In this document: positions 26,567 to 33,327 of the stretch, piece after piece
Layout: each line of letters opens with the position of its first letter
How positions within the stretch are numbered: the first letter of the stretch is position 1
Assembly: GCF_900699035.1 (NCBI RefSeq)
Contig: NZ_LR217739.1
Location: 62,001 to 126,000, forward strand
Source: Buchnera aphidicola (Cinara piceae)
GTDB lineage: Bacteria > Pseudomonadota > Gammaproteobacteria > Enterobacterales > Enterobacteriaceae
DNA: 64,000 bases
Direction: 5' to 3'
The notes under the pieces: model-generated
The model's input: the letters and a program-made list of their open reading frames with translations, nothing else
Told to the model about the DNA's origin: nothing
Database searches by the model: none
Program-made: the position numbers and the translations under genes

Positions 26567-26648
26567 TTTTTTTATGAATATTAATAATGTTTATTATTAT
26601 AAATAGAACATAAATTTTATTTTATATAATTTTTTTTAAGGATTAGAT

Positions 26649-28583
26649 ATGCAGGTTATTACATCATGCGATGGAATTAAAAAGATATATAAAAGTCCTG
26701 TTACTTTAAAAAAAATTTTTAAAGATGTATATCCAAAACATTTATCGCGTTTTATTGCTGGATTTATAGATAATAAATTAGTTGATTTAAATACATTAGT
26801 ATATCATGATTCATCAATTATTATGATTGATGAAAATAATAAAAATTTTTTACAAATGATCAGACGTTCTTGCATGCAATTATTAAATCGTGTATTGAAA
26901 GATATATGGCCTCATGTAAAAATAGCAAGTGGGTGTATAACTGAGTCTGGTTTTTATTGTGATATTGATATGCCATATATTTTAACGAAAAAGGATTTAA
27001 ATAGTATTTCTAAACAAATGTTAAAAAATATTTCTAATTCATATGAAATATATACTAAAACTATTTTGAAAAAAGATTTTTTAGAATTATTAAAAAAAAA
27101 AAATGAGATTTATCAAATTAGTATTGTGAATAAACAATCAGTTAATGAAAATAATATTAATATTTGTTATCATGAAGATTATTATGAATTTTGTATACAA
27201 CCTCAAGTATCTAATATTAAGTTTTGTAAATATTTTTTATTAAAAGACATTTCAGGTGCATACTGGAAGAATAATAAAGAAAATAAAATGTTACAAAGAA
27301 TTCATGTTATTGTTCAAATTTCAAAAAAACGATTAACAGATTTTATTTTAAAAATAAAAGAATTAGAAAAGCGTGATCATCGTAAAATTTCCAATTTACT
27401 AAATTTATATCATATTCAAAAAGAATCCCCAGGTATGATATTTTGGCATGAAAATGGATATATTATTTTTAAGACATTAGAAGATTTTATTCGTAAGAAA
27501 TTAATTAAAAATAATTATATTGAAGTTAAGAGTCCAATTATTTTAGATAAATCTTTATGGAAAAAAAGTGGTCATTGGACATATTATAATTCATCTATTT
27601 TTGTTACTGAATCCGAAAATAGAAAATATTGTATAAAACCCATGAATTGCCCGGCTCATGTCCAAATTTTTAAACATGGTTTAAAATCTTATAAAGATTT
27701 ACCTATACGCATGGCTGAATTCGGAAGTTGTCATAGACAAGAATCTTCAGGTTCTTTACATGGTTTAATGCGTGTACGTGGTTTTACTCAAGATGATGCT
27801 CATATTTTTTGTACTAAAAAACAAATTAAATTAGAATTAAATAATTGTATTAATTTGTTGTTTGATTTATATAGTACATTCGGTTTTAAAAAAATTACTA
27901 TAAAATTTTCAACACGACCAGAAAAAAGAATTGGAGATGATAAAATCTGGGATCAAGCAGAACGAGATTTAGAATCTGTTTTAAAAGAACATAGATTAAT
28001 TTTTGAATATAAAGTTGGTGAAGGGGCATTTTATGGTCCTAAAATTGAAATTGCTTTAGAAGATAGTCTACAAAGAATATGGCAATGTGGAACTATACAA
28101 TTGGATTTTTATTTGTCTAAAAAATTAAATGCATATTATATTAATAAAGATAATATAAAAAAATATCCTATTATTATTCATCGCGCTTTTTTAGGTTCTA
28201 TAGAAAGATTTATAGGTATTTTAATTGAAGAATATAATGGAAATTTACCAATCTGGTTATGTCCTATTCAAGTTGTCATCATAAGTATTTCTAAATCACA
28301 TGTTTATTATGTAGAGAAAATAGTAAAATTATTTTTATCTTATAATATTCGAGTTATTTCAGATATTACTGAAAATAGTATTAGTTTTAAAATTCGTAAT
28401 TATATTAATAAAAAAATACCATATATTTTAATATGTGGGGATAAAGAAATAAAAAATAATAATATAACTGTAAGAAATCGATTTTCTAATAAACCTTATC
28501 AACAGAATATTGATAGTTTTATTAAAAATATTATTAATAATATTACAAATTATAGTATAAAAGATTTTAATATGGAGGATTAG
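26649..28583 (+). CDS. thrS: Threonyl-tRNA synthetase with a defective editing site
   Basis: Charges tRNA-Thr. The class II catalytic core is intact: YCIKPMNCPAHVQIF (zinc Cys), MAEFGSCHRQESSGSLHGL, GFTQDDAHIFC (zinc His), GEGAFYGPKIE and IIHRAFLGSIERFIG (zinc His). The 644 residues match E. coli (642). The N-terminal TGS region (1-62) is retained but diverged. In the editing domain, which aligns without gaps to E. coli numbering, the catalytic histidines are gone: His73 is Arg, His77 is Gln, His186 is Gln; Cys182 remains. Serine mischarged on tRNA-Thr is therefore unlikely to be cleared. The gene contains an A12 run (27092-27103) in frame. Its last codons carry the infC ribosome site. Confidence 0.95.
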   Translation: MQVITSCDGIKKIYKSPVTLKKIFKDVYPKHLSRFIAGFIDNKLVDLNTLVYHDSSIIMIDENNKNFLQMIRRSCMQLLNRVLKDIWPHVKIASGCITESGFYCDIDMPYILTKKDLNSISKQMLKNISNSYEIYTKTILKKDFLELLKKKNEIYQISIVNKQSVNENNINICYHEDYYEFCIQPQVSNIKFCKYFLLKDISGAYWKNNKENKMLQRIHVIVQISKKRLTDFILKIKELEKRDHRKISNLLNLYHIQKESPGMIFWHENGYIIFKTLEDFIRKKLIKNNYIEVKSPIILDKSLWKKSGHWTYYNSSIFVTESENRKYCIKPMNCPAHVQIFKHGLKSYKDLPIRMAEFGSCHRQESSGSLHGLMRVRGFTQDDAHIFCTKKQIKLELNNCINLLFDLYSTFGFKKITIKFSTRPEKRIGDDKIWDQAERDLESVLKEHRLIFEYKVGEGAFYGPKIEIALEDSLQRIWQCGTIQLDFYLSKKLNAYYINKDNIKKYPIIIHRAFLGSIERFIGILIEEYNGNLPIWLCPIQVVIISISKSHVYYVEKIVKLFLSYNIRVISDITENSISFKIRNYINKKIPYILICGDKEIKNNNITVRNRFSNKPYQQNIDSFIKNIINNITNYSIKDFNMED

Positions 28584-28589
28584 AATATA
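28574..28589 (+). promoter_or_regulatory. Strong ribosome-binding site with AUA start codon of infC
   Basis: GGAGG at 28574-28578, inside the last codons of thrS, stands eight bases before ATA at 28587. The spacing is optimal and no AUG, GUG or UUG is nearby in frame. This is the arrangement expected if IF3 represses its own synthesis by discriminating against a non-canonical initiation codon, as with AUU in E. coli infC. Confidence 0.8.
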
Positions 28590-29123
28590 AAAGCCGGAAA
28601 AAAAAACCAATTATCTCGCCCTCATCGTATTAATGAAGAAATTACTTCTAATGAAGTACGATTAATGAATTTAGAAGGTGAACAACTCGGGATTATGAGT
28701 CTTTATAAAGCATTAGAACAAGCAAGAATATATGGATTTGATTTAGTTGAAATTAGCCCAAATTCTGTACCCCCGGTATGTCGTATTATGAATTATGGTA
28801 AATTTTTATATGAAAAGAGTAAAGCTCTTAAAAAACAGAAAAAGAAACAAAAAATAGTTCAAATGAAAGAAATAAAATTTAGACCTAATACAGATAAAGG
28901 AGATTATGAAGTTAAATTAAGAAGTTTAATGCGATTTTTAAAAGATAGTCATAAAGTTAAAATTACACTTAGATTTAGAGGCCGAGAAATGGCTCATCAA
29001 AGTATTGGTGTAAATATGTTAAATCGATTAAAAAATGATTTATCTATTTTAGCGAATGTTGAATCATTTCCAAACAGAATTGAAGGTCGACAAATGGTAA
29101 TGATTTTATCTCCAAAGAAATAA
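28587..29123 (+). CDS. infC: Translation initiation factor IF-3, AUA start
   Basis: Binds the 30S subunit, prevents premature joining of 50S and proofreads the start codon. From ATA at 28587 the product is 178 residues (E. coli 180). It reads [20 protein letters not shown], matching the E. coli [20 protein letters not shown] segment. Conserved blocks follow: [39 protein letters not shown] and [18 protein letters not shown]. The first conventional in-frame start (ATG 28665) would delete 26 conserved residues. It lies three bases after thrS, as in E. coli, in the thrS-infC-rpmI-rplT cluster. Confidence 0.93.
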
Positions 29124-30933: not shown

Positions 30934-33327
30934 ATGAAGTTTGGTGAAGAGTGGTTACGAAAATGGATTAATCCGTCTATTTCAGGTAAAAATATATGTA
31001 AACAATTAACAAAATTTGGTTGTGAAGCGGAATATATTAAAGAAAAAAATATTCTTTATTTAAACACGGTTATAGGTCAGATTATTGCGAAAAAAGTATA
31101 TAATATTGATAAAAAATTGATTATATATACAATATGTATATGTCAGAATCAAAATATTCTTATACTACATAAAGAAACCAAGTATTTATTAATTGGGACT
31201 AAAGTACCAGTTATTTTATCTAAATCTTTTTTAAAAAAAACTATTAATACATCATCATTAAATTTAAATTTAAATATTTCACATTGTATGTTAGGTTCTT
31301 ATAATAGATTATATATAGAAAAAGATAATCATGATATTATTGTTCTTGAAGATGATTCTAAAATAGGATTAAATTTTAATGACTATTATCATAAAAATAA
31401 TTATATAATGAGGTTATTTACCCCCTTTAATCGTATAGATTTACGTTCTATTTGGGGTTTATCTAGAGAGATTGCAATATTAAATAATTTACCTTTACCC
31501 CATTTAAAATATAAATCTTTTTTAAATCAGAAAAAACTTTCTTCATTCAATTGTAATATTGATATTCAAACTAATAATATACAATATATTTTTTGTGAAT
31601 TATATTCAATAAAATTTAAATCCATATTACCTTTTTGGATACAAGATCGATTAAGAAGATCTGATATATTAACTAATAATATTATTACTAATATTCTTAA
31701 TTATATATTTATGGAAACAGGACATTTTTTGCATGTATTTGATTTAGATAAATTAAATAAAAATTTATTTATTAAAAGTATAGAAAAAAAGAAAATAATT
31801 AAAACTATATATAATAAGAATTTTTCTTTACCGAAAAATACTATTGTTTTATCAGATAATAAAAATATTTTATCTTTTGAAGATATGCAATATTCTAATT
31901 TTGCAGAAATTAATCACTCTACTAAAAATTTATTTTTAGGATCTATTTGTTTCGATAATCAATTTTTACAGGAAAGAAATATATTTATTCCTATAATACA
32001 TAAAAAAACAGAATGTTTAAAATATAATATATATCCTAATATACAAAAAAATATTTTTCAATATACACAAAAATTAATAATTGATATATGTGGAGGAGTA
32101 TCTTCAAAATTTAAACAATATAATACGAATAATGGTGTTTTTTTTTCTAATTTATTATTATTAGAAATTAGAAAATTAAATAAAATTTCTGGAAGTATTT
32201 TTACTAAAAAAGATGTAATATCTATTTTAGATCATGGTTATTTTTCTTATTATGAAAATAATAATATTTTTTTTGTTACTCCTCCATATTGGCGTTCTGA
32301 TATTATTATTGTTGAAGATTTAATTAGTGAAATTATTCGTATTTATGATTATGAAAATATTAAATCAATGCCACCAAGAGAATATATAAATAATTTTTTA
32401 AATAAACAAGAAAAAATATCATTATCAAGAATTAAATTATTTCTTTCAGATCGCGGATACTGTGAAATTATTTCTTATAGTTTTATAAATCCTATGATAC
32501 AAAAATATTTTGTGTCACAATCTAATATACTTAAAATTCAAAATCCTATTTCTAATGATATGTCTGATATGAGATTATCTTTATGGATTGGTTTAATAAA
32601 CTGCATTTCTTATAATCAAAAACGTCAACAAGAATCTATTCGTATTTTTGAAACTGGACTATGTTTCTTTTTAAAAAAAGAAGATAAGAATAAAATTATT
32701 CAAAATGAATATTTATCTATAGCAATGAGCGGGTTTATTAGTCGCCGTGAGTGGTATTTAAAAAATAGAAAATTTGATTTTTATGATTTAAAAGGTGATG
32801 TTGAATCTATTTTAAATATTTGTGGAAAATTAGAATGTATAGAATTTATTTCAGAAAATTTTATTGGTTTATGTTCTGATAAAAGTGCTGGTATTTATTT
32901 ATCCGGTCAATTAATTGGTCGAATTGGAGTATTAGACATTACTTTTCATCATCTTTTTGATTTAAAGGATCCAGTTATATTATTTGAAATTATGTGGAAA
33001 AAAATTTGTAGTCGAAATTCTATTCATGTAAAATATATATCTATTTTACCAAGCAGTAAAAGAGATATTTCTATAATCGTTTCACAAAATATTTTAACTA
33101 AAGATATTCTTAAGATATGTTATAGTAATATTAGTATAAAAAATACTAATATAAATATATGTGATGTATATATGGGATCAAATATACCTCCTAAAAAAAA
33201 GAGTGTATCTATTTGTTTTATTTTTAATAGTACGAAAAATACACTAAAAGAATTTGATATTAATTTAAATATTCTTCAATGTATTACCGCTTTAAAAAAT
33301 AAATTAGGAGCAACTTTAAGAGAATAA
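30934..33327 (+). CDS. pheT: Phenylalanyl-tRNA synthetase beta subunit with an eroded editing domain
   Basis: Structural and tRNA-binding subunit of PheRS. At 797 residues it keeps full length (E. coli 795). The C-terminal parts are recognisable: [60 protein letters not shown] and the final anticodon-binding [10 protein letters not shown]. The N-terminal OB-fold and the B3/B4 editing domain are badly diverged. [12 protein letters not shown] (near 264-275) aligns with E. coli GQPMHAFDKDRI, but the glycine-rich block (E. coli LAMGGIFGGEHSG) reads [13 protein letters not shown], the editing Glu in VLLECAFF is Gly in LFLGSICF (about 336), and the THTDASHRYERGVDP-type block is unrecognisable. Clearance of mischarged Tyr-tRNA-Phe is probably lost. 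ihfA follows after four bases. Confidence 0.94.

Follow-up and report, generated by a model that had tools for sequence, protein, structure and literature searches.

Loss of proofreading by aminoacyl-tRNA synthetases is described, in the available portions of four papers (PMC10057733, PMC7373986, PMC11020763, PMC4014445), for the LeuRS, PheRS and ThrRS of Mycoplasma and for most host-restricted bacteria, with Li et al. 2011 PNAS (Mycoplasma) and Melnikov et al. 2018 PNAS cited as the sources; an earlier note on the DNA studied here had mentioned such loss in mycoplasmas. According to a review (PMC7373986), in a statement that concerns ThrRS, PheRS and LeuRS, no Mycoplasma genome is known to have lost three or more editing activities. 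For E. coli ThrRS, the accessible excerpts of PMC4041444 term H73, H77, C182 and H186 all critical for editing, and give a reduction of the editing kcat of 7000-fold for H73A, 70-fold for H186A and over 500-fold for C182A or C182S. An impaired N-terminal editing domain is likewise present in the Anabaena ThrRS T2 which, in the available text of PMC4787780, retains HxxxH and DxCRGPH; its defect stems from an insertion, and T1 compensates for it in trans.

The gene described here, thrS of Buchnera aphidicola from Cinara piceae, lies in a window of 64,000 nucleotides (i.e., the whole stretch of DNA that was analyzed) from a reduced, host-restricted genome of 443,798 bases in three contigs. As far as the editing-defective synthetases of host-restricted bacteria are described in the sources above, the locus resembles them in combining an intact core with degenerate ThrRS and PheRS editing sites and a reduced genome, but it differs from those earlier cases in that Buchnera is a mutualist, the loss could be traced across genomes, the AlaRS and ValRS sites are kept and the replacement residues are conserved. 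Unlike Anabaena with its T2 enzyme, the Buchnera genus has one ThrRS and no T1-like partner. The E. coli C182A, H73A and H186A mutants affect the same editing positions and, from the excerpts of PMC4041444 and PMC6918089, would predict Ser misacylation at little growth cost; compared to these point mutants, three of the four positions as well as K156 and D180 are changed here and the core of the domain is eroded. As no paper naming Buchnera ThrRS editing was found in the open literature (most subscription papers lie outside it), we consider this locus a new instance of a published type of loss. Coordinates are given in Table 1.

Table 1. Positions in the window of thrS, pheT and the domains and codons discussed in the text
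Feature	Coordinates	Strand	Basis
thrS, threonyl-tRNA synthetase, 644 aa plus stop	26649..28583	+	ORF, alignment, Pfam
ThrRS editing module, residues 63-224, predicted to be inactive	26835..27320	+	Boundaries from E. coli numbering
thrS codon 73, CGT, Arg (E. coli His)	26865..26867	+	Alignment
thrS codon 77, CAA, Gln (E. coli His); Gln in 16/16 genus genomes	26877..26879	+	Alignment
thrS codon 156, Gln (E. coli Lys)	27114..27116	+	Alignment
thrS codon 180, Glu (E. coli Asp)	27186..27188	+	Alignment
thrS codon 182, TGT, Cys, sole retained catalytic residue of four; Cys in 6/16 genus genomes	27192..27194	+	
thrS codon 186, CAA, Gln (E. coli His); Gln in 14/16 genus genomes	27204..27206	+	
ThrRS catalytic domain, residues 243-534; C334, H385 and H511 intact	27375..28250	+	Alignment
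pheT, PheRS beta chain, B3/4 editing site lost	30934..33327	+	Pfam B3_4, 86.1 bits
pheT codon 336, Gly; counterpart of Glu334 in the E. coli beta chain	31939..31941	+	Alignment

The earlier note had claimed a gapless alignment to E. coli ThrRS over the first 186 residues; in a HMMER alignment to 1qf6 the gapless stretch covers residues 1-639. The same alignment bears out the replacement of His73 by Arg and of His77 and His186 by Gln, with Cys182 alone kept among the four editing residues, so that the protein reads R, Q, C, Q where an editing-proficient ThrRS carries H73, H77, C182 and H186. Two further changes at the editing site, K156 to Q and D180 to E, were absent from that note's list. The aminoacylation core and zinc ligands, also said to be intact, indeed are: C334, H385, H511 and 10 further aminoacylation residues of our choice are all identical to E. 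coli, i.e., 13 of the 13 residues checked. With its class II core motif residues, zinc ligands and C-terminal anticodon-binding domain, the protein is a ThrRS of bacterial type, and it shares with the editing-defective ThrRS of host-restricted bacteria the loss of editing residues and the retention of aminoacylation residues. Pfam matches were found for tRNA-synt_2b (180.8 bits), HGTP_anticodon (PF03129, 59.8 bits) and the SAD editing domain (tRNA_SAD, PF07973; 27.8 bits, cut-off 24); the TGS profile PF02824 gave no match to this ThrRS, and residues 1-62 align without gaps to the E. coli protein.

Cis-editing of Ser-tRNA(Thr) would be lost in this enzyme, a prediction strongly supported by the residues themselves, by the relatives and by the published E. 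coli mutants; we judge the site almost certainly dead because the E. coli single mutants H73A and H186A already lose kcat to the extent given above. Against this interpretation, C182 survives in this ThrRS and the conservation of Gln77 and Gln186 exceeds what a plain dead site requires. A free-standing editing protein, for which the earlier note had proposed a search, was not found among proteins of three families. Profile searches recovered PF04073 in none of the 16 genus genomes (12 of 14 controls positive) and PF02580 in none of the 16 (8 of 14 controls positive), and PF07973 matched only two proteins in the source genome, ThrRS and AlaRS (903-aa frame), with no extra copy.

The loss runs through the sampled Buchnera and is not peculiar to this strain. 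H73, H77 and H186 are missing in all 16 genus genomes, as the proposed alignment with other Buchnera brought out (for the residues at positions 77, 182 and 186 see Table 1), and the large-genome relatives read HHKDCH at positions 73, 77, 156, 180, 182 and 186 in 37 of 38 rows, the exception (L278) being HQKDCH. Among 46 further Buchnera-like rows from 14 genus groups (10 of which were assigned by inference from tree and gene position), neither H73 nor H186 occurred, and the module was absent or partial in 7 rows (four of group g88, which a tree of the catalytic domain places outside the Buchnera clade, as well as G134, G396 and G218). On a catalytic-domain tree the Buchnera clade comprised 116 rows, five non-Buchnera symbiont rows having been taken out by hand; in the 113 rows with a module, H73 was found in 2, H77 in 13, C182 in 14 and H186 in none, and Gln was found at position 186 in 101 and at position 77 in 92. 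Parsimony placed three origins of change at position 186, all of them H to Q. These data suggest that the loss of the editing site is old and was probably present already in the Buchnera ancestor; a single ancestral loss is likely but, with deep branches poorly resolved, unproven.

We also examined 94 other reduced-genome rows. The reduced genomes, of roughly 1 Mb at most, were selected by eye out of a list of 392; of 90 further genomes so selected, 80 were searched together, 6 were added by coordinates, and G257, G324, G370 and G382 were left out. G225, G357 and G116 gave matches but contributed no sequence, and G297 (L143), which had no usable frame under table 11, was dropped ahead of the counts. 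The site was intact in 11 rows, lacked H73 only in 8, had lost two residues in 2, three in 21 and four in 30, and the module was absent or partial in the other 22, including the 7 Buchnera-like rows as well as Blochmannia-like and Riesia genomes (L120, L121-L124, L130 and others). All eight single-residue losses in these rows concerned H73 (L105, L079, L075, L151, L090, L096, L077 and L089). A path thus becomes visible, from an intact site through loss of H73 only to a dead site and a deleted module. Outside this count, Serratia symbiotica (L035) and Erwinia haradaeae (P0066) lacked C182 only, and L278/P0089 lacked H77 only.

Changes were concentrated in the editing domain. The reference consisted of 49 ThrRS rows from genomes of at least 1.4 Mb (leaving out L278, a symbiont row, HQKDCH, from a 1.4 Mb genome), across which the six editing columns (73, 77, 156, 180, 182 and 186) are invariant. 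Of the reference-invariant columns, 50 of the 89 that lie in the editing domain are changed in this protein, against 38 of the 202 that lie in the catalytic domain (P = 4.6 × 10-10; Fisher's exact test, columns taken as independent). As the columns concerned are invariant in the reference and erosion is concentrated in the editing domain, the change of the editing residues is not a matter of chance. Other parts of this ThrRS are eroded too: the TGS part has changed at 9 of its 19 such columns, the anticodon domain at 22 of 44. General AT-driven erosion can be rejected as the explanation, since ThrRS of the Wigglesworthia group show equal catalytic divergence and retain the editing domain (12/89 editing and 40/202 catalytic columns changed in L101; 15/89 and 38/202 in Wigglesworthia L105). 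An intermediate case (L068, RHSH) had 29 of 89 editing columns changed.

The module remains under constraint. Among 13 pairs with lost sites, omega of the editing domain ranged from 0.12 to 0.41 (median 0.256; pairs share sequences), by which neutral decay of the module is rejected; the median was 0.166 for the intact-site pairs (9 pairs with a defined value of 11). The median ratio of dN in the editing domain to dN in the catalytic domain was 2.16 for lost pairs as compared to 1.74 for intact pairs (n = 11; L077/L083, with Q73, and L073/L072, KQCQ, were left out as not intact). The rate ratio of editing to catalytic domain, with clade rows chosen from the catalytic-domain tree, was 2.74 in Aphidinae Buchnera, 1.99 in Cinara Buchnera, 1.50 in symbionts whose site is either complete or short of H73 alone (position 73 being changed in 7 of the 25 rows of this set) and 1.52 in large genomes (1.05/0.69). 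Constraint on the module is thus relaxed, not gone.

Constraint was also evident at the replacement residues themselves. The Cinara clade (23 rows) carried Gln77 in 23, Gln156 in 22, Glu180 in 22 and Gln186 in 19 rows, and these positions ranked among the slowest 3%, 15%, 18% and 31% of editing columns, respectively. The Aphidinae clade (48 rows) carried Gln186 in 48, Asp180 in 47, Lys156 in 47, Gln77 in 46 and Asp182 in 45 rows, with ranks of 2%, 23%, 18%, 29% and 37%. The conserved pocket sets thus consist of Gln77 and Gln186 together with K156, D180 and D182 in Aphidinae and with Q156 and E180 in Cinara. Position 73 evolves freely in the Cinara and Aphidinae clades (48% and 78%, respectively), as does position 182 in Cinara (72%).

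Editing sites of the other synthetases were compared across the same 16 genus genomes. AlaRS retained H564, H568, C666 and H670, and ValRS retained T221-T222, K277 and D286, in all 16 genomes. LeuRS carried T252 in 15, D345 in 16 and D342 in 2 genomes, with G331 replaced by Ala in 16, and IleRS carried T241-T243 and D342 in 16, H333 in 14 and N250 in none. In the PheRS beta chain, H265 was present in all 16 genomes, E334 was Gly in all 16, and G318, T354 and A356 were found in none; the decay of PheRS reported for the window is thus real. ProRS had neither K279 nor H369 in any of the 16 genomes, by an alignment that is loose in this region. PF04073 did not recognize the INS domain of ProRS in any of them, including the source genome (L252, L256), and in G009 (L244) the ProRS frame is only 438 aa long. 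Editing loss is therefore selective, since the alanine and valine proofreading sites are retained; the PheRS and ProRS sites are lost and the LeuRS and IleRS sites slightly eroded. The suggestion that translational fidelity is relaxed in this organism is too broad in view of AlaRS and ValRS. By sequence, three editing activities (Thr, Phe and Pro) would have been lost in this genome.

Beyond the genus, PheRS of 20 other Buchnera-like genomes showed E334 in 2, H265 in 12, both in none and G318 in none, so that the site is lost in all 20. The AlaRS site was intact in 29 of 30 additional genomes (26 Buchnera-like and 4 others). It was missing in G137, and no other of the 46 AlaRS examined lacks the editing residues. 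In G137 (L360), AlaRS is confined to a frame of 436 aa that does not include the editing half, and a downstream frame of 123 aa gave a second match, to AlaRS residues 533-628, with a stop inside the match.

We consider it very probable that this gene encodes a housekeeping ThrRS with a dead post-transfer editing site, the loss being old and tolerated and the module retained until deleted in some lineages. Given its intact catalytic and anticodon domains, the enzyme would still activate threonine and load tRNA(Thr). With three of the four editing residues (H73, H77 and H186) lost, Ser-tRNA(Thr) formed at the synthetic site would escape hydrolysis in cis, and some Ser may enter at Thr codons. 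Drift is the presumed cause; such a loss would be tolerated because Ser for Thr is among the least costly replacements and because symbiont populations, being small and subject to bottlenecks, are unable to maintain functions of slight benefit. The low omega, well under 1, and the conserved replacements suggest that the empty module persists for folding or tRNA binding, to be deleted outright later in some lineages.

Published E. coli phenotypes are compatible with such tolerance. In the accessible part of PMC6918089, the ThrRS C182A strain matches the wild type in growth, at 42 C as well, whereas the AlaRS C666A strain does not, and in that of PMC4066437 PheRS editing is dispensable yet protects against m-Tyr. 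The pattern of losses follows what such mutations cost E. coli, whose growth is normal with editing-defective ThrRS or PheRS but not with editing-defective AlaRS. Tolerance has a ceiling, as forced high-level insertion of Ser at Thr codons slows or harms E. coli (PMC6918089, same part). Loss of editing where the competing amino acid is scarce was considered as a lead only. Tyr is not made by the Buchnera of Cinara cedri and Phe is (PMC3213167), which fits; ProRS does not fit, and Buchnera makes threonine, but the table of that paper also credits the C. cedri Buchnera with serine synthesis, although its text has the aphid supplying serine. A favourable Thr:Ser pool is thus unproven.

A dead editing site could leave fidelity untouched if the aminoacylation site discriminated more strongly between Thr and Ser or edited before transfer, which we regard as rather improbable here. 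Such compensation has been suggested for Mycoplasma ThrRS and described for some mitochondrial enzymes. Mycoplasma ThrRSs are excepted from the enzymes that misactivate Ser in the excerpt of PMC7337905, and enzymes compensating by discrimination or pre-transfer editing are mentioned in the accessible text of PMC4787780; the latter text, however, reports no gain in discrimination for the editing-impaired Anabaena T2 (specificity factor 436 vs 314). The identity of all 13 checked aminoacylation residues to E. coli likewise argues against a remodelled synthetic site, and none of the second-shell changes seen in the Cinara clade (for example, Q or K for N at 364 and I for F at 468) points to serine. 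Clearance of Ser-tRNA(Thr) by an outside factor, either a symbiont deacylase of another family or an imported host protein, is very unlikely. Animal tRNA deacylases such as ATD do act on mischarged tRNA(Thr) in the available part of PMC7302879, but the substrate of ATD is Ala-tRNA(Thr), no evidence of import was seen, and the families searched for above yielded no candidate. A sequencing or assembly artefact has a negligible chance of being the cause and was rejected, as the 16 genus genomes agree and the frame is open with no stop.

The conserved glutamines raise the question of whether the pocket has acquired another role. Once the catalytic histidines were lost, the pocket may have taken on a new configuration that purifying selection conserves for a function other than hydrolysis of Ser-tRNA(Thr), for instance gripping the 3' end of the tRNA; we hold this to be unlikely. 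A pocket rebuilt from Gln77, Gln186 and the 156/180 pair into a new functional site (with altered hydrolysis, or binding the CCA end or a ligand) would account for the invariant, slowly evolving Gln77 of Cinara and Gln186 of Aphidinae and for the three H to Q origins at position 186. This proposal is nevertheless quite unlikely, as position 73, the site of the 7000-fold effect in E. coli, is free in both clades and position 182 is free in Cinara, Gln186 is replaced in some rows (by P, L, V, E, M, A or S), and related lineages delete the module; moreover, the same picture would be expected of polar residues that are buried where the fold has to be maintained.

Under the preferred reading of a dead and tolerated site, Buchnera offers a clean natural experiment, in which ThrRS, PheRS and ProRS proofreading would have been lost and AlaRS and ValRS proofreading kept in the same genomes. 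The pattern of loss matches the order of cost of the E. coli mutants where these were tested, i.e., cheap for Thr and Phe and costly for Ala, and a measurable background of Ser at Thr and of Tyr at Phe positions is predicted in an uncultured mutualist.

The nearest protein relatives were those of Buchnera from Cinara cuneomaculata, C. kochiana, C. pseudotaxifoliae, C. pseudotsugae, C. splendens and C. tujafilina. Of the smaller contigs, that of 6,052 bases matches the leucine plasmid of Buchnera aphidicola BCc (Cinara cedri) with 79.4% identity over 96%, and a search with that of 2,749 bases returned no match. Upstream of thrS, the gap to a DAHP-synthase-like ORF is only 82 bases (26567-26648). 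Expression of E. coli ThrRS is under ThrRS operator control; such control may be lost here, as an Rfam search of the window found no leader or operator family. Downstream, infC (IF-3; 28587-29123, + strand) extends beyond its ATG ORF (28665-29123), which falls short at the 5' end; the frame runs upstream to an ATA codon (28587-28589) that sits three bases past the thrS stop and is followed by IF-3-like sequence. This ATA is probably the start codon of infC, which in E. coli begins at AUU.
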